A stretch of 12,965 nucleotides of DNA, taken from contig CASEGD010000016.1 of NCBI GenBank assembly GCA_949287345.1, positions 1-12,965 of the forward strand. The letters are read 5' to 3'. Under the pieces are notes generated by a model. It was not told the DNA's origin. It worked only from the letters and a program-made list of their open reading frames with translations, and made no database searches. The translations under genes and the position numbers were made by a program. The number at the start of each line of letters is the position of its first letter. Position 1 is the stretch's first letter. Origin of the DNA: an uncultured Phascolarctobacterium sp. (GTDB lineage: Bacteria > Bacillota > Negativicutes > Acidaminococcales > Acidaminococcaceae). This document shows positions 3,392-9,609 of the stretch, piece after piece.

Positions 3392-3805
3392 ATGCTGCTG
3401 GAATTATTGCAAAAAGGTTACGGCAAAGCCATGGGGCTGAACTGTGCCGAAAAAATGCTTTATGGGGCAAACTGGGCTTATAATTTGCAGCTGCCGCCGC
3501 AGGCACTAAAAATTGCCAGCGGATTTGGCGGCGGTATGGGTGCAGGTGCGGCCTGCGGCGTTGTTACCGGCGCGTGCATGGTATTAAGCACACTGTATGT
3601 AAAACGCAACGGCAAGGAAGAAGGTACCAAAATCCGCGCGCTGTGCAAAGAATTTATTGATGCCTTTGCTGTGGAAACAGGCAGCTACGACTGCAGCGGA
3701 GTAAAACCTAAATACTTTGAGCCGGAAACCCAGTGTGATAAAGTAATCTACATCGGCGCAGCAATTTTGGATAAGATTGTTGCAAGGGAAGGATTGGGCT
3801 GCTGA
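3392..3805 (+). CDS. C_GCAxxG_C_C family probable redox protein
   Basis: The protein is 137 aa and cysteine rich: C18, C55, C62, C85, C101, C115 and C137. The block SGFGGGMGAGAACGVVTGAC (residues 43-62) followed by spaced cysteines matches the C_GCAxxG_C_C family, small proteins thought to be redox active or metal binding. Their exact reaction is not established. There is no signal peptide. The glycine-rich hydrophobic stretch is part of the motif rather than a clear membrane helix. The SD is AGGAGGG (3378-3384), and the gene starts 12 nt after nrdG. It is probably the last gene of the nrd operon, since a long hairpin with a T-run follows about 95 nt later. The link to nucleotide reduction is positional only. 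Confidence 0.8.
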   Translation: MLLELLQKGYGKAMGLNCAEKMLYGANWAYNLQLPPQALKIASGFGGGMGAGAACGVVTGACMVLSTLYVKRNGKEEGTKIRALCKEFIDAFAVETGSYDCSGVKPKYFEPETQCDKVIYIGAAILDKIVAREGLGC

Positions 3806-3900
3806 TTAAAGCTGCTGTAAAGTAATTTTTAAGTAATGGCTAAAAACAAAATAACCTGCTAACAGTCAACTCAAAAATTTAAAGCAATAAATTTAGTATA

Positions 3901-3957
3901 ATAACAGTCAAAACACTTATTCGCTTCGTTCAGGGCGTGTTTTTGACTGTTATTTTT
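3901..3957 (+). terminator. Long hairpin terminator after the nrd operon
   Basis: A stem of about 16 bp pairs 3901-3916 (ATAACAGTCAAAACAC) with 3937-3953 (GTGTTTTTGACTGTTAT), with one bulged base and a loop of about 20 nt, followed directly by TTTTT (3953-3957). The opposite strand has no T-run after the stem, so it acts mainly on plus-strand transcripts. A third copy of the arm sequence TAACAGTCAA lies at 3860-3869. Apart from these, 3806-4035 holds nothing I can name. Confidence 0.7.
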
Positions 3958-4035
3958 ATGGAATATTGCAATTTTTGAATGTTTCCTGTCAGCCGGTTAT
4001 TCTTGTTTTTATTTATTTGTTATGCCGTTATTAAA

Positions 4036-4335
4036 TTATTCTTTCGGCAAGGTATAATTTTCAACGGCGGCGATAAAATCGTTATCGTCTGCGTTAGCGG
4101 TGCGGAGGGATTGTAAGGCGGCGAAGTTTTGCAGTTCCTTGCCCCATAAAAAGGCGTCGCGGTCGTCGTAGCAGGCGGCAACAATGGGCGCTTTGGCGTC
4201 CACCGGCGTTTTGCCGTCAAGGTCGGTAAAAATAATGTAGCAGTTATCAAAATCCAGCCCGTAAACGCTGATATGTTCTTCTTCGGTCGGTGCGCTCCAG
4301 CAGCCGAGCGCTTCAAATTCTTTTTGCAATGCCAT
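4036..4335 (-). CDS. Hypothetical 99-aa protein
   Basis: I do not recognise this family. The protein is small, acidic and soluble looking, with no signal peptide, membrane helix or metal motif. It starts MALQKEFEALGCWSAPTEEE and contains a middle DFDNCYIIFTDLDGKTPVDA stretch that looks like beta strands, then aromatic and leucine-rich helices. The minus-strand start has a good SD (GAGG seven bases before the ATG) and an extended -10 element about 30 nt upstream. These support this frame over an overlapping frame of similar length on the same strand. It is the only minus-strand gene in the window, and divergent from the 65-aa zinc-ribbon gene. It could be a small immunity or regulatory protein, but nothing in the sequence decides this. 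Confidence 0.62.
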   Translation of the reverse strand: MALQKEFEALGCWSAPTEEEHISVYGLDFDNCYIIFTDLDGKTPVDAKAPIVAACYDDRDAFLWGKELQNFAALQSLRTANADDNDFIAAVENYTLPKE

Positions 4336-4362
4336 AATGTAACCTCGCTTAAACTTTATTTA

Positions 4363-4371
4363 ATAATAGCA
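4363..4371 (-). promoter_or_regulatory. Extended -10 promoter for the minus-strand 99-aa gene
   Basis: Read on the minus strand this is TGC followed by TATTAT, an extended -10 about 28 nt ahead of the start codon at 4335, in AT-rich DNA. No -35 of quality is visible. Confidence 0.4.
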
Positions 4372-4438
4372 TATAAAATTTTACGCGGTTTGTCCATAAA
4401 ACTTGCAACAAAATCTGCAAAAAAGCGCCGCGGTAGTG

Positions 4439-4444
4439 TATAAT
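4439..4444 (+). promoter_or_regulatory. -10 element for the 65-aa zinc-ribbon gene
   Basis: TATAAT lies 33 nt before the ATG at 4478. The best upstream hexamer, TCTGCA at 4414-4419, is weak and 19 bp away. It sits back to back with the minus-strand -10 at 4363-4371. Confidence 0.4.
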
Positions 4445-4477
4445 AGATTGGAAAGGCCGCAAAGGAGTTGACGGAGA

Positions 4478-4675
4478 ATGAAAAAATACCAGCCCGGCGA
4501 AAATATGCAGGTGCTTTTTGTTTGCCCTAAATGTGGCAGGCAGCTGGCGTGGGCTTTGCCCGCGGCGGAGATGCAGTGTCCTAAATGCGGCACATGGGTA
4601 ACAAGCAAAAACCGCAAAGACCGCGGGCAGGATGTTTTTCTGCCTCCGGACAGCGACCAGACGGTACTATTTTAA
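4478..4675 (+). CDS. Small zinc-ribbon protein, 65 aa
   Basis: Two CPKCG knuckles, C16-x2-C19 and C34-x2-C37, form a rubredoxin-type zinc ribbon spanning most of the protein. The tail after residue 40 is hydrophilic (SKNRKDRGQD) and probably disordered. The function is unknown. Such mini-ribbons often bind nucleic acid or a larger protein, but no partner is evident. SD-like AAAGGAG (4460-4466) lies 11 nt before the ATG, with a second weak GGAG at 4473-4476 too close to serve. The gene stands alone between divergent and downstream units. An in-frame stop at 4673-4675 ends it before the aldolase gene. Confidence 0.7.
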   Translation: MKKYQPGENMQVLFVCPKCGRQLAWALPAAEMQCPKCGTWVTSKNRKDRGQDVFLPPDSDQTVLF

Positions 4676-4748
4676 GTGAGCGCCAATTAGTGGGGGTTTA
4701 CTGTTTGAATTTATTAACAAAAACTTAAATATGAAAGAGGTATGAGTT

Positions 4749-5393
4749 GTGAAGATTTTTATGGATACCGCTAACGTGGCGGAAATTGCAGAAATAGCGG
4801 CGCTGGGCGTTGTGTACGGTGTTACAACTAACCCGAGCCTGATTGCCAAAACCGGCAGGACGCAGGCGGAGGTTATTCCCGAAATTTGTGGTTTGGTTGA
4901 CGGCCCTGTCAGCGCCGAAGTTATCAGCACGGACTGCGAGGGCATGGTTGCCGAAGCGCGCAAGCTGATGAAAATTTCCGACAAGGTTGTCGTTAAAATT
5001 CCGTGCATTGCCGAAGGCCTGAAAGCCGTTAAAATTTTGAGTAAAGAGGGTATTAAAACCAATGTAACTCTGGTGTTCAGCCTGCCGCAGGCGCTGATGG
5101 CTGCGCGTGCCGGTGCAACTTACGTCAGCCCGTTCATCGGCCGTCTGGACGATATCGGCGAGAACGGCGCAGAGCTGGTTGAAAAAATGGTTAAGGTTTT
5201 CCGCCAGTACAATCTGGATACGCAGATTATCGCGGCCAGCATCCGCAATATGGAGCATGTGGAAAAGGTAATGCTCGCCGGTGCGGATATTGCGACTATC
5301 CCGACCAAAGTTTTAAAAGAACTGCTGCTGCATCCTTTGACGGATAAAGGTCTTGCACAGTTCCTTGAAGACTACAAAAACAGTTTAAAATAA
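4749..5393 (+). CDS. fsa: Fructose-6-phosphate aldolase / transaldolase-like protein (FSA/TalC family)
   Basis: The protein is a class I aldolase of the small transaldolase family, 214 aa, cytoplasmic. Members either cleave fructose 6-phosphate to dihydroxyacetone plus glyceraldehyde 3-phosphate or act as transaldolases in the pentose phosphate pathway. The N-terminus [15 protein letters not shown], the GVTTNPSL motif (24-31), and [14 protein letters not shown] with the Schiff-base lysine K83 are diagnostic. [13 protein letters not shown] near 125 and the conserved ASIRNMEHV near 160 follow. The start is GTG at 4749, chosen because it gives the family N-terminus and has AAAGAGG (4734-4740) eight bases upstream. 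It is monocistronic, with its own terminator. Sequence alone cannot separate aldolase from transaldolase activity. Confidence 0.93.
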
Positions 5394-5399
5394 CATCAC

Positions 5400-5429
5400 G
5401 CGGCGGCGTAATGCTGCCGCTAAATTTTT
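5400..5429 (+). terminator. Terminator of the aldolase gene
   Basis: An 8-bp GC-rich stem pairs 5400-5407 (GCGGCGGC) with 5413-5420 (GCTGCCGC, one G-T pair) around a 5-nt loop. A TAAATTTTT tail follows. It starts 6 nt after the aldolase stop and isolates it from the riboswitch-controlled unit. Confidence 0.8.
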
Positions 5430-5486
5430 ATCTGCGTAAGCAGGATTTTTGCCAAACGCAGAGAATATATTATTTTGGAAAAAATC

Positions 5487-5650
5487 AACAGGTGATGCGG
5501 TTAACCCCGCGAGCTTAATAGGGAAGCCGGTGTGAATCCGGCGCAGTCCCGCTACTGTAATGGCGAGCCGTCTGCAAGATGTCACTGAAGCGATGCTTTG
5601 GGAAGGCGCAGCGCGGCGATGAACCTGAGCCAGGAGACCTGCCTGTTACG
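5487..5650 (+). promoter_or_regulatory. Cobalamin (AdoCbl) riboswitch
   Basis: This is the aptamer of the cobalamin riboswitch class. Conserved blocks appear in order: AACAGGTGATGCGG (P1/P2 side), AGGGAAGCCGGTG then AATCCGGCGCAGTCCCGC, ACTGTAA (5554-5560), and the B12 box AGCCAGGAGACCTGCC (5628-5643). CCTGTT closes P1 with AACAGG. A hairpin with a G-rich loop (around 5656-5690) follows, suitable for the L5-L13 kissing interaction. With ligand bound, the downstream terminator should form and shut off the cob operon. The gap between the aldolase and cobU (5394-5752) holds the aldolase terminator, this element and its terminator. A promoter must lie in about 5430-5485, but I see only weak hexamers there. 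Confidence 0.95.
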
Positions 5651-5702
5651 AGTGCTATTGCCTACGGGGGATAGGTGGGCGCTTGCATATTGGTAAAAGT
5701 GT

Positions 5703-5730
5703 AATCCTCTTTGTTTAAAGGGGATTTTTT
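5703..5730 (+). terminator. Riboswitch expression-platform terminator
   Basis: A 10-bp stem pairs 5703-5712 (AATCCTCTTT) with 5717-5726 (AAAGGGGATT, one wobble) around a GTTT loop, with T's to 5730. It sits about 60 nt after the B12 box and 22 nt before cobU, the right place for ligand-dependent attenuation of the operon. Confidence 0.85.
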
Positions 5731-5752
5731 GTTTATAGAAAGGAGTTTTGCG

Positions 5753-6331
5753 ATGCCGGGTAAACTTGTTTTGGTTACGGGCGGAGCACGCAGCGGCAAA
5801 AGCGAATTTGCCGAAAAATATGTGCTGCATTACGGCGCTAAATGCGCTTACATTGCTACCGCTGAGATTTTGGACGACGAAATGGCTGAACGTGTACGCT
5901 TGCATCAGGCGCGCCGCCCCCAAACGCGCTGGATAAATTTTGAAGCCCCCTACAACGCGCATGAGGTGATGAGCGAGGCTGTGCAGCGGGCAGACGCAGT
6001 TTTGTTCGACTGCCTGACGTTGTACATGAGTAATTTGCTGTACGGCAAGAACGCGCCGCAGGGCACAACGGAAGAAAAGGCGCAGGCTGTGAAGGCAGAG
6101 ATTGCCAAACTTTTGGACGCAGCACGTGCGGGTGATGTGCCGGTGGTGTTTGTTACAAATGAAGTTGGCGCAGGTATTGTGCCGGAGAACGCTATGGCGC
6201 GCGAATATCGCGATATTGCGGGCTGGGTGAACCAGCAGGTGGCGGAAGCTGCGGACAGCGTGTTTTACTGCGTTGCCGGGCAGGCCGTTGATGTGAAGAA
6301 GCTTGCTTTTAAATTTGAGGAGGAAAATTGA
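5753..6331 (+). CDS. cobU: Adenosylcobinamide kinase / adenosylcobinamide-phosphate guanylyltransferase
   Basis: CobU phosphorylates adenosylcobinamide and then transfers GMP, giving AdoCbi-GDP for lower-ligand attachment. The protein is 192 aa, near the family norm. The P-loop GGARSGKS lies at 10-17. VRLHQARRP carries the histidine (H51) in the place of the guanylylated histidine. FDCLTLYMSNLL (Walker B-like region) and VTNEVGAGIVPENAMAREYR follow. The start is ATG 5753, with GAAAGGAG at 5738-5745. An in-frame upstream extension to 5711 would run through the terminator hairpin and is rejected. It is the first gene of the riboswitch operon, and its TGA overlaps the next ATG by one base (TGATG). 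Confidence 0.96.
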   Translation: MPGKLVLVTGGARSGKSEFAEKYVLHYGAKCAYIATAEILDDEMAERVRLHQARRPQTRWINFEAPYNAHEVMSEAVQRADAVLFDCLTLYMSNLLYGKNAPQGTTEEKAQAVKAEIAKLLDAARAGDVPVVFVTNEVGAGIVPENAMAREYRDIAGWVNQQVAEAADSVFYCVAGQAVDVKKLAFKFEEEN

Positions 6332-7359
6332 TGCAGGAGATTACCGTTCCGCCGCTGAACACGGAAGCGGCAGAGATTGTACATAAAAACTGGCTGGCGC
6401 TGGACGAAGTACCCGGTCAGCTTGGCAAGGTTGAAAGAATGGTTGAGCGTTATGCAGCAATTTGCGGCACGCCGGATTTTGACGGCAAACTTAAACCCGC
6501 CATGCTTTTGATGTGCGGCGACCACGGCATTGCCAAATACGGCGTCAGCGCTTACCCGCAGGAAGTAACCATGCAGATGATTAACGGCTATATGCGAGGC
6601 ACGGCGGGTGCAAACGTAATGGCGCGCCACGCCGGTGCGGATGTTTTTGTGGTTGATATGGGCACGACTTTTGATTTAAGCCACCTGCCCAAGGTGCGCA
6701 ACGAAAAGGTTGCCTGGGGCACGGAAGATTTTACCCAAGGGCCTGCCATGACACGCGAGCAGGCGGAAGAAGCCTTGCAGCGCGGCATGAAGGTTGCCGA
6801 TGAGTGCATTGATAACGGCTATAACATGCTGGTAACGGCAGAAATGGGCATTGGCAACACCACAAGCACGGCAGCTATCGTATCGGCGTTTACCGGCCTG
6901 CCGCCGGAGCTGACTGTTGGGCGCGGCACCGGCATTAACGATGAGCGCATGAAGGTAAAACGGCAGGTTGTTGCTGACGGTTTGGCGTTTAACAAGCCAA
7001 AATTGGGCGATGCAATGGATATTTTGTGTAAGGTGGGCGGTTACGACCACGCCGGGCTTGCCGGTATGATTATTGCCGGTGCGCGCCGCCGTGTGCCGAC
7101 AATGGTTGACGGCGTAAACGCAACGGCAGCGGCACTACTCGCTTACGGCATTGAACCTGCCTGCGCCGATTATATGTTCTGCTCGCATTTATCGGCAGAG
7201 ATTTCGCACGCCAAAATGCTGGAAATTTTGAATTTAAAACCGATTGTCGATGCAGGCATGCGCCTTGGCGAAGGCACGGGTGCATCGCTTGCGATTGTAA
7301 TTTTGCAGCAGGCACTTGATTTATACAAAAAAATGACGGCGGGTGGCACAAATGCGTGA
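6331..7359 (+). CDS. cobT: Nicotinate-nucleotide:base phosphoribosyltransferase CobT (ArsA-like partner candidate)
   Basis: CobT makes the alpha-ribotide of the cobamide lower ligand from nicotinate mononucleotide and a base such as dimethylbenzimidazole. The protein is 342 aa, full length. It has CGDHGIAKYGVSAYPQEVT (62-80, base-binding region), GEMGIGNTT-like AEMGIGNTTS (170-179), VGRGTGI, and GEGTGA with the catalytic-base glutamate at E314 (equivalent to E317 of Salmonella CobT). The N-terminal KPPGSLG motif of canonical CobT is altered to EVPGQLGK (26-33). A second, divergent CobT relative two genes downstream keeps that motif, so the two may work together as ArsA/ArsB do in Sporomusa. 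ATG 6331 overlaps the cobU stop. SD GAGGAGGA lies at 6317-6324. Confidence 0.93.
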   Translation: MQEITVPPLNTEAAEIVHKNWLALDEVPGQLGKVERMVERYAAICGTPDFDGKLKPAMLLMCGDHGIAKYGVSAYPQEVTMQMINGYMRGTAGANVMARHAGADVFVVDMGTTFDLSHLPKVRNEKVAWGTEDFTQGPAMTREQAEEALQRGMKVADECIDNGYNMLVTAEMGIGNTTSTAAIVSAFTGLPPELTVGRGTGINDERMKVKRQVVADGLAFNKPKLGDAMDILCKVGGYDHAGLAGMIIAGARRRVPTMVDGVNATAAALLAYGIEPACADYMFCSHLSAEISHAKMLEILNLKPIVDAGMRLGEGTGASLAIVILQQALDLYKKMTAGGTNA

Positions 7360-8137
7360 TTTTATTACCTGCCTGGAATTTTTAACGCGCATCCGTTTCA
7401 GTCACCGTACGGACTGGCGTGACGAGGATTTTTCGCGCAGCGTGCCTTATTTTCCGCTGGTCGGACTTGTTATTGGCGCGTTTCTGGGTGCAGTCAATTA
7501 CGGTCTGGTCTGGCTTGCGGTGCCTGATTTTATGCGGGCGGCGCTTTTAATACTTGCGGAAATTATCATCACCGGCGGGCTGATGTACGATGGTTTTATG
7601 GATACCGCCGACGGCGTTTTTTCGGCGCGTAACCGCGAGCGCATGCTGGAGATTATGAAGGACAGCCACGTTGGTTCCAACGCCGTGCTGGCAGTTGTAA
7701 CCTTGATTTTGCTGAAAGTGGCGGCGTATGTTTCCATCATGCCGCAGGAGCTGACGGCGGCGCTGATTGCCATGAGCGTAGCGACACGCACTTTTATGGT
7801 AATTTTTATCGTCAACTTCCCTTACGCGCGCAAAACCGGCATCGGCCACATGTTTAAAATGTACGCCAAACCCGTTTACACTGTCATCGCGCTGGCGCTG
7901 GGCATTGGCATAACGGCGCTGTGCGGTTTGCAGTACCTTGCGGTGATGGCGGTAACCTTTGTGCTGGTGTTTGGCTTCGGCAAATTTTTGCAGGGGCAGC
8001 TTGGTGGGCTGACGGGCGACACTTACGGCGCGCTGACGGAATGCGGCAACGTGCTGTACTTAATTATGGTAATAATTGGCGGACGCTTTTTGGTGCTTGG
8101 CTTTTATACTTATCACAGCATATTTAGTTTGTTTTAA
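7352..8137 (+). CDS. cobS: Adenosylcobinamide-GDP ribazoletransferase (cobalamin synthase)
   Basis: CobS is a polytopic inner-membrane enzyme that joins AdoCbi-GDP to the alpha-ribotide, giving the cobamide 5'-phosphate. The protein is 261 aa. It starts with the family-typical FLTRIRF. The Mg-binding motif GGLMYDGFMDTADGVFSARN has aspartates D80, D84 and D87, and D104 and H106 lie in KDSHVGSNA. Several hydrophobic segments are clear (about 35-58, 62-78, 112-132, 135-155, 174-215, 238-255). GQLGGLTGDTYGALTE is the conserved late motif. ATG 7352 (overlapping the cobT stop by 8 nt) gives MRDFITCLEFLTR; an in-frame GTG at 7343 is less likely. It lies between the two CobT-family genes. Confidence 0.95.
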   Translation: MRDFITCLEFLTRIRFSHRTDWRDEDFSRSVPYFPLVGLVIGAFLGAVNYGLVWLAVPDFMRAALLILAEIIITGGLMYDGFMDTADGVFSARNRERMLEIMKDSHVGSNAVLAVVTLILLKVAAYVSIMPQELTAALIAMSVATRTFMVIFIVNFPYARKTGIGHMFKMYAKPVYTVIALALGIGITALCGLQYLAVMAVTFVLVFGFGKFLQGQLGGLTGDTYGALTECGNVLYLIMVIIGGRFLVLGFYTYHSIFSLF

Positions 8138-8149
8138 GGATGGTGCAGA

Positions 8150-9001
8150 ATGGAGATAGATGTTTTGGCGGCAAACGTGCTGCCTGCCGATAGAAACTTA
8201 ATTGCCAAAGCGCAGGAGCGTTTTGACAATTTAATCAAACCGGTCGGTTCGCTGGCGAAGCTGGAAGAAATGGCGACGCGCTATGCGGCAATTTACGGCA
8301 GCGCCGATAAGAACGACGTGAATTACCCGCAGAAAACGCTGCTGGTGTGGACTGCCGACCCGGCGCAGGCGGCAGCTTATATGCAGGGCGGCAAACAGGC
8401 AAGCGTGCTGGCGGCTAATGCCGGAATAAACGCGCAGACCTTTCTGGTAACGGCGGAAAGCATTGAAGAAGCGTTGCTTGAAGGCGCGCTTTTGGTTAAG
8501 GAAGCGGCAAGCCTGCAAAGCGGTCAGCAGGTGCTGGCTTTCGGCTGTGCGGACGATGTGCCGGAATATCAGCTTAATGCTGACGCTGACGGCTACGAAT
8601 TTTTGCAGCCGCTTGGCAGTATGGCTATTGCCGCTATGGCAGGCGGCATATTGCAGGCAGCGGCGCTTAAAGTGCCGGTAATGCTGGACGGCGCTGCTAC
8701 CGTGTTGGCGGCAATAGCTGCGGTTAAGTATAATGCGGCGGCAAAGGATTATCTGTTCGCCGGGCATGTATCGGCAGAGCCGGGCATGGAAGATTTGTTA
8801 AAAGCCATTGGGCTTGCCGCGCCGCTGAGGCTGGATATAAAAATCTGCCGCGGCGAGGGCGCTGTGCTGGCTTTGAGTCTGCTTGACGCTGGGCTTAAAG
8901 CCTACAATGAAATGGAAACCTTTACCGAAGCAGGCGTACATGTTGAAGTAAAAGAATTTTCGCATGCCGAGGAATTGAAGGGTAAACAGGGGGCGAAGTA
9001 A
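8150..9001 (+). CDS. Divergent CobT-family paralogue (ArsB-like candidate)
   Basis: The protein is 283 aa, about 60 shorter than CobT. It is clearly related at both ends: ERFDNLIKPVGSLAKLEEMA (23-42, the canonical KPxGSL motif), and PVMLDGAATVLAAIAAVKYN, DYLFAGHVSAEPG and METFTEAGV towards the C-terminus. The DHG..YP.EVT base-binding loop and the GIGNTT motif are absent. Ungapped alignment of the C-termini places R234 at the catalytic glutamate of CobT (CRGEGA against GEGTGA), with a Glu two residues later. It is therefore probably not an active CobT by itself. Position in the cobamide operon suggests a subunit or specificity partner of the upstream CobT. SD AAGGA lies at 8136-8140. Its TAA overlaps the next ATG. 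Confidence 0.85.
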   Translation: MEIDVLAANVLPADRNLIAKAQERFDNLIKPVGSLAKLEEMATRYAAIYGSADKNDVNYPQKTLLVWTADPAQAAAYMQGGKQASVLAANAGINAQTFLVTAESIEEALLEGALLVKEAASLQSGQQVLAFGCADDVPEYQLNADADGYEFLQPLGSMAIAAMAGGILQAAALKVPVMLDGAATVLAAIAAVKYNAAAKDYLFAGHVSAEPGMEDLLKAIGLAAPLRLDIKICRGEGAVLALSLLDAGLKAYNEMETFTEAGVHVEVKEFSHAEELKGKQGAK

Positions 9002-9609
9002 TGGGCAGGCTGTATTTAATCCGCCACGGCGAAACTGATTCCAACAAAAGCTACCGCTTTCAGGGGCAGACTGATATTGAACTGAATGCCAAAGGAAAGG
9101 CGCAGGCGCAGCTTCTGGCAGAGCATTTTAAGGACATCAAGCTGGATAAAATTTATTGCAGCAGCCTTCTGCGCGCACGCCAGACGGCTGAACCGGTGGC
9201 GCAGACGCATGGGCTTGCAATTGAAACGGTTGACGATATCAAGGAAATTGCCTTCGGTGAATGGGAGGGCATGACCTTTGACGAAATCAATGCCAAATGG
9301 CCGGGTGAAATTGATGCTTTCTTTAAAAATCCGGCGCTGTGCCATGTACCCGGCGGCGAAAATTTTACCGCCGTCGCCGCGCGCGTGGAGCCGTTTTTTA
9401 AACGCTGCCTGACGGAGATGGATGACAAAGATATTGCCATTGTGTCGCACGGTGGCATTATCCGTGTGCTGCTGTGCCTGTTTTTGGGCGTGGATTTGAA
9501 TAATATCTGGAATTTCAGCGTTGGTAATTGCAGCACGTCAACGCTTGCAAAATGGCGCGGGTTTACGACAGTGCTGGAAAACACCAACGCAACCTATTAT
9601 TTACGTTAA
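9001..9609 (+). CDS. cobC: Histidine phosphatase, probable alpha-ribazole phosphatase CobC
   Basis: This is a phosphoglycerate-mutase-like phosphatase of 202 aa. In this operon it most likely removes the 5'-phosphate from the cobamide phosphate (or alpha-ribazole phosphate), the last step of nucleotide-loop assembly. The catalytic motif LIRHGETD has the nucleophile H9 and R8. R58 (SSLLRARQTAEP), the acid region KEIAFGEWEGM (81-91) and the second histidine H150 (IVSHGGIIR) are all present. It starts within the TAATG overlap with the CobT paralogue. The family is broad, so substrate assignment rests on operon position. It is the last gene before a new promoter. No convincing terminator hairpin follows. 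Confidence 0.88.
   Translation: MGRLYLIRHGETDSNKSYRFQGQTDIELNAKGKAQAQLLAEHFKDIKLDKIYCSSLLRARQTAEPVAQTHGLAIETVDDIKEIAFGEWEGMTFDEINAKWPGEIDAFFKNPALCHVPGGENFTAVAARVEPFFKRCLTEMDDKDIAIVSHGGIIRVLLCLFLGVDLNNIWNFSVGNCSTSTLAKWRGFTTVLENTNATYYLR

Follow-up and report, generated by a model that had tools for sequence, protein, structure and literature searches.

A conserved, split-role pair of CobT homologues in a cobalamin operon of Phascolarctobacterium

Why does a cobalamin-riboswitch operon carry two CobT-family genes, the second of them shortened and devoid of the active-site core motifs? The operon in question, cobU-cobT-cobS-short cobT-cobC (5473–9609, forward strand), lies in the window, i.e. the whole stretch of 12,965 nucleotides from an uncultured Phascolarctobacterium sp. 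that was analysed here (Table 1). The first CobT homologue is hereafter called A and the second B. Open reading frames, matches to Pfam and NCBIfam models and the riboswitch model RF00174 all agreed with the claim of the earlier note that both genes belong to one riboswitch operon. Three of the four gene junctions overlap, and cobS and B are separated by a gap of 12 bases. Since promoter-like matches (8, versus 4.7 in shuffled sequences) and terminator-like matches (11 versus 8.2) were close to the shuffle level, only the hairpin following the riboswitch is listed. In the genome from which the window derives (1.46 Mb, 207 contigs, 89.7% complete), the only matches to the Pfam family DBI_PRT (PF02277) were A and B.

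Table 1. Features of the cobalamin operon, with positions in the window.
Feature	Position	Strand	Evidence or remark
Cobalamin riboswitch aptamer	5473..5660	+	RF00174, 115.6 bits
Hairpin resembling a terminator, with a T run after it, in the riboswitch–cobU interval	5703..5726	+	Pattern match only; counts near those of shuffles
cobU	5753..6331 (ORF from 5711; likely start ATG 5753 behind AAGGAG)	+	PF02283, NF004469
A subunit, ArsA-like CobT with intact catalytic motifs	6331..7359 (start 6328/6331)	+	Best PDB match ArsA, 292 bits; TIGR03160, 360.5 bits
A: DEVPGQLG in place of CobT xKPPGSLG (decayed)	6403..6426	+	Alignment
A: catalytic Glu, E314 counted from ATG 6331	7270..7272	+	Alignment; Glu in 45/45 A proteins of the order
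cobS, between both cobT genes	7343..8137	+	PF02654, TIGR00317
B subunit, shortened CobT without active-site core motifs, 283 aa	8150..9001	+	PF02277, 144.2 bits in two stretches; model pLDDT 90.4
B: KPVGSL, kept	8237..8254	+	KP in 43/43 B proteins of the order
B: arginine (Arg234) where CobT has the catalytic Glu	8849..8851	+	Alignment
B: EMETFTEAGVH C-terminal segment, kept	8909..8941	+	Alignment to CobT-invariant columns
cobC, alpha-ribazole phosphatase; start overlaps stop of B	9001..9609	+	TIGR03162, 185.6 bits

Both proteins exceeded the DBI_PRT cut-off of 22.6 bits (A: 379.1 bits; B: E = 7e-42), while only A passed the CobT equivalog cut-off of 319.3 bits, B scoring 136.1 bits. In the alignment, A retained the motifs DHG, AYPQEVT, GNTT, GRGTG and LGEGTGA. 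B read IKPVGSLA near its N-terminus and lacked the DHG/YP, GNTT and GRGTG stretches, a loss that comprises the core motifs and some 60 residues. The motif lists given beforehand for A (DHG/YP, GNTT and E314 kept, N-terminal motif changed) and for B (KPVGSL and the C-terminal part kept, base loop and GNTT gone, arginine at the position of the glutamate) were both borne out. ArsA was the best match of A in the PDB, followed by Thermus CobT (232 bits). For B, ArsB (83.9 bits) was nearly level with Yersinia CobT (82.5 bits), so that this ranking by itself is no proof of kinship with ArsB. A structure model of B was confident (pLDDT 90.4, pTM 0.88); compared with PDB chains, it ranked ArsB first with Yersinia CobT almost level, and three of its four top matches were chains B or D of ArsAB.

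ArsAB of Sporomusa ovata (PDB 4hdk, 4hdm, 4hdn, 4hdr, 4hds) is a heterodimer that activates phenol and p-cresol. Like the pair in the window, it consists of two CobT homologues, one of which has intact catalytic motifs. ArsB resembles B in lacking GNTT and GRGTG and keeping KP; its DHG is changed to DNG. It differs in that it is 350 aa long and itself keeps the glutamate, whereas B has 283 aa and an arginine, which by sequence leaves the catalytic residues in one subunit here; moreover, the genes of the window do not stand in tandem but have cobS in between. A 2012 study by Newmister reportedly found catalysis in ArsAB to be carried out by ArsA only. The homodimeric CobTs of Salmonella enterica, Thermus thermophilus and Yersinia share the fold and hold the full set of residues in one protein, in contrast to the window pair, which divides them between two genes. 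The base pocket of Salmonella CobT is described in one account of the enzyme as built from both chains (PMC9561151).

We consider it very probable, from sequence comparison and modelling, that A and B form an obligate heterodimer with one active site, in which B would lend its termini to the active site of A as in ArsAB. The two proteins would be halves of a single nicotinate-mononucleotide:base phosphoribosyltransferase, a pseudosymmetric heterodimer. A would provide the core, with the base loop, the nicotinate mononucleotide loops and the catalytic glutamate, and B would supply in trans the N-terminal KPVGSL and the C-terminal EMETFxEAGVH as walls of A's base pocket. The second, mirror-image site, composed of the core of B and the termini of A, would be dead, which would lead to the decay of both. 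For the pair in the window, we infer the physical pairing, the contacting residues and the catalytic consequence.

A shortened protein without core motifs might also be a decaying paralogue without function. Its missing core motifs and some 60 lost residues fit such a history, as do a glutamate column that varies freely (E was aligned in 11 of 43 B proteins of the order) and an evolution faster than that of A, the dN/dS of A against four relatives being 0.02–0.07. Yet the dN/dS of B against five relatives was only 0.06–0.15 (the last with saturated dS), KP was retained throughout the order, every order locus extending beyond cobS carried B, and the predicted fold was confident. Decay without function is barely credible on these grounds, and the idea of B as a pseudogene was ruled out by dN/dS, conservation and fold. 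Homologues of B numbered 689; among the 120 listed, the window's own included, identity was 79–100% and length 267–286 aa. Among its closest relatives that carry a name, best-segment identity to B was 97, 94 and 80% in uncultured Phascolarctobacterium, 95% in an Acidaminococcaceae MAG, 53% in Phascolarctobacterium faecium DSM 14760 and 47% in Succiniclasticum ruminis DSM 9236.

A DBI_PRT match was found in 50 of 63 genomes of the order. We fetched 48 loci from 47 of these genomes, leaving out two genomes (G039, G040) in which the pair was fragmentary or on separate contigs, and added the window (n = 49). The order cobU-A-cobS-B-cobC occurred in 43 loci and cobU-A-cobS-B in two; A and B were adjacent in three, and one contig ended after cobS. 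The full gene order of the window, whose cobS between the pair was singled out earlier as worth noting, is kept in 43 of 49 loci. B measured 215–325 aa in 44 loci of the cobS type. At the lower extreme stood the B of locus L058 (G041), with 215 aa, KPKNAL and further deletions, next to an A that was short too (291 aa). One genome (G042; loci L059 and L060, the latter at 3548–5458) had a cobS-separated pair plus a second, adjacent ArsA-like pair. The A of this adjacent pair scored 514 bits to ArsA, and its short B (286 aa) scored 274 bits to ArsB. In nine genomes of one genus (g2), a profile search gave neither a CobT nor a CbiD match. CbiD occurred in 43 of the 59 genomes of the family; the copy in the window's own genome was incomplete and lay at the end of a contig.

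Sampling of the class gave a DBI_PRT match in 123 of 130 genomes. From the matches listed for these genomes, 60 loci were picked by hand, favouring visible pairs and long frames, which biases the shares of the arrangements. All 60 had A and B: 36 adjacent, three around cobS and 21 fused in one open reading frame. In adjacent pairs, the member with the lower score to the A model was named B. The fused frames (L187–L206, L242) encoded 626–709 aa, apart from one of 866 aa with an extension; the A half of L204 carries an untrimmed extension. Several homologues of the fused proteins bear the plain name CobT. These proteins of other Negativicutes (e.g. P0136, from a source whose name begins with Anaerosporomusa) likewise combine an A core with a shortened B, in one chain as against two here, and the fused A halves that were tested fell into the ArsA subclade. 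A model of a fused homologue folded as one unit (pLDDT 92.7, pTM 0.93). A third, distant CobT type (L247–L253) scored 198–212 bits to the A model and lay near cobS or cobC in six of seven loci; four of its genomes (G066, G070, G075, G097) also gave a fetched A/B pair.

The gene neighbourhood offers another explanation, namely that A is an ordinary CobT homodimer and B an accessory protein that, instead of completing the active site of A, docks to CobS or CobC and passes on alpha-ribazole phosphate. The interposed cobS (45 of 49 order loci, counting the two without cobC) and the overlapping or closely spaced genes of the window are in line with it. In the class sample, though, B adjoined or was fused to A without cobS in 57 of the 60 chosen loci. 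A acting alone is also hard to reconcile with the loss of terminal motifs that are normal in CobTs (KP was left in 11 of 45 A proteins of the order), the more so as the segments missing from A are those retained by B. We therefore regard the accessory role as very unlikely.

The division of conserved residues between A and B was quantified on 99 alignment columns whose invariance across 54 ordinary CobTs was 90% or more. This reference was obtained from 58 candidates (L103–L160) by removing L110, which has a pair, and L137, L139, L142 and L152 for their length, and by adding L207. In the order pairs, A alone conserved 44 columns and B alone 18; another 19 were common to both proteins and the remaining 18 had been lost from both, so that A and B together hold 81 of the 99 columns and neither alone has the full set. 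The 18 jointly lost columns compare with 22.6 expected (permutation p = 0.04), a modest complementary excess when pooled. By position, the split was sharp: 13 B-only versus two A-only columns in the termini, and five versus 42 in the core (Fisher p = 9e-8). Pairs of the ArsAB type behaved alike, with 14 B-only and two A-only columns in the termini and three and 44 in the core (p = 2e-9). As the ordinary CobTs had been found by a C-terminal pattern, which inflates C-terminal invariance, the comparison was repeated for the N-terminus only, giving six B-only and one A-only columns against five and 42 in the core (p = 1e-4).

The motif counts, in which L058, L060 and, for B, L043 were left out of the order set, told the same story. 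KP was retained in all B proteins of the order (43/43) and of the ArsB type (60/60) and in all ordinary CobTs (54/54), compared with 15 of 61 A proteins of the ArsA type. Seven of eight CobT-invariant columns in the C-terminal segment were kept in 93–100% of the order's B proteins and 0–29% of its A proteins; the eighth was kept in 2% and 9%, respectively. The complementary losses proposed in the earlier note hence stood as an overall split by position. They are not uniform, given the A proteins that still have KP and the B proteins with an aligned glutamate.

If the chains share active sites, the termini of A serve the core of B, and joint decay of these two parts is expected. Across 106 pairs (without L058, L080, L043 and L234), decay of the A termini correlated with decay of the B core (rho = 0.70), that of the A core with the B termini less so (rho = 0.48), and that of termini and core within the same protein hardly (rho = 0.16 and 0.14). 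Phylogenetic contrasts (n = 105) gave r = 0.67 for the A termini with the B core and 0.15–0.29 for the other five combinations, of which A termini/A core, A termini/B termini and A core/B core reached 0.26–0.29 (p < 0.01). With the N-terminus only, the coupling persisted (rho = 0.62; contrasts r = 0.63), other values being at most 0.33 and 0.25. It amounted to rho = 0.56 in the 93 pairs with a non-intact B. Some results weigh against the heterodimer, among them the appreciable values of other combinations. By arrangement, rho was 0.80 in 39 adjacent and 0.47 in 21 fused pairs, but a weak 0.20 in 46 cobS-type pairs (p = 0.18). Independent pairs on well-supported branches numbered three to five, too few for a sign test. 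Where the core motifs of B were intact, A had KPxxSL in 12 of 13 pairs; where they were lost, A still had it in 13 of 93.

The window thus holds a real, conserved CobT pair with split roles. The heterodimer like ArsAB that had been suggested for it gained indirect support from the complementary and coupled losses and from the natural fusions of A and B. In the trees, all A proteins including ArsA formed one clade (support 100/99), within which those of the cobS type and of the ArsA type were sister subclades. The comparison with ArsA, ArsB and CobT proposed in the earlier note thereby grouped A with ArsA at the level of the clade but not of the subclade. The B proteins of the ArsB type were also one clade (100/100), outside of which B proteins of the window type fell in free trees; the B of L237 stood apart. 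Approximately unbiased (AU) tests rejected neither a grouping of window-type B with the ArsB type (p = 0.52, or 0.34 after five rows that were long or odd had been removed) nor one with cobS-adjacent and other ordinary CobTs of Negativicutes (p = 0.54; 0.40 without these rows). Either constrained tree had a slightly better score than the free one when the larger set was used. We give even chances to a separate origin of B, from an ordinary CobT gene located after cobS in other Negativicutes. In L220, L221, L256 and L257, cobS is immediately followed by an intact CobT, which speaks for such an origin, together with the exclusion of window-type B from the fully supported ArsB-type clade and the presence of both systems in G042. 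It is countered by the equal tolerance of the AU test for an ArsB origin, by long branches and by the isolated position of the L237 protein.

A further question is which lower ligand the pair attaches, and unusual ligands had been suspected. The positions corresponding to S80, Q88 and L175 of Salmonella CobT are Y-M-M in the A of the window and F-M-M in 23 of 45 A proteins of the order. Ordinary CobTs (n = 54) share these residues, with 28 Y-M-M and 24 F-M-M; phenol specificity as read from this triad was consequently dropped as evidence, and the suspicion found no support there. A reading compatible with the heterodimer is that the pair is a phenol and p-cresol enzyme like ArsAB and that the bacteria make phenolyl cobamides, which we judge rather unlikely. 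The sister position of A to the ArsA subclade would suit it, and Y-M-M equals the S80Y/Q88M/L175M variant of Salmonella CobT for which a crystal structure with p-cresol is mentioned, although Y-M-M is so frequent in ordinary CobTs and F-M-M so common in the order. A also retains EVT and LGEGTGA in their CobT-like form, unlike most proteins of the ArsA type.

Genes for benzimidazole synthesis were sought in 59 family genomes. BluB was above the cut-off in none, with matches below it in 52 (68 bits at best in the window's own genome, against a cut-off of 150). Neither BzaB above its cut-off nor BzaD at E = 1e-30 was found in any of the 59, in a search limited to these two of the Bza proteins, in which no control genome exceeded the cut-off. 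These absences would fit phenolic ligands; salvaged benzimidazoles or adenine may serve as well. The BzaB match in the own genome was identified as thiC (NF009895: 680 bits versus 410; BzaB model: 664 versus 700). HydG, which releases p-cresol from tyrosine, was present in the own genome and in agreement with phenolic ligands. ThiH exceeded its cut-off in 14 of the 59 genomes; the own-genome ThiH match proved to be HydG, ThiH not being over the cut-off there.

Phenolyl cobamides are given as 16% in human faeces and 20–34% in the bovine rumen in a study that lists S. ovata and V. parvula as the only known producers (PMC8123684). It seems unlikely that Phascolarctobacterium and Succiniclasticum use the pair to activate phenolics and, as a main source overlooked so far, supply the phenolyl cobamides of faeces and rumen. 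The carriers do include gut and rumen bacteria that convert succinate to propionate. P. faecium is described as such a succinate converter in the gut and as a predicted B12 maker, and the expression of Bacteroides B12 transporters is stated to shift in co-culture with it (PMC7568257). Through this response, the lower ligand of the carriers bears on cobamide sharing.

The best reading, judged from sequences, is that the pair is a variant of the known ArsAB-like kind and would work like ArsAB. A survey of arsAB is described as having relied on neighbouring cobT genes, removing those of <300 or >800 aa, and as having obtained 27 species, almost all Negativicutes (PMC6461909). By requiring neighbouring genes of 300–800 aa, it would miss both shortened, cobS-separated pairs and single fused genes, which suggests that ArsAB-like pairs have been under-counted. 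The 15 arsAB carriers tabulated in another study include none named Phascolarctobacterium or Succiniclasticum (PMC8123684, as far as its table is concerned). Among open-licence papers on ArsAB or CobT, CobT heterodimers, the genus and family names or phenolyl cobamides, no title dealt with this pair. The case illustrates how an enzyme with two chain-shared active sites may turn into a heterodimer with a single site or, in other lineages, into one fused chain; graded intermediates occur within one bacterial class. Apart from the operon, two open reading frames after nrdR (226 and 448 aa; 944–2880 of the window) overlap in different frames; they look like one gene with a frameshift near 1530–1620, possibly an assembly error.
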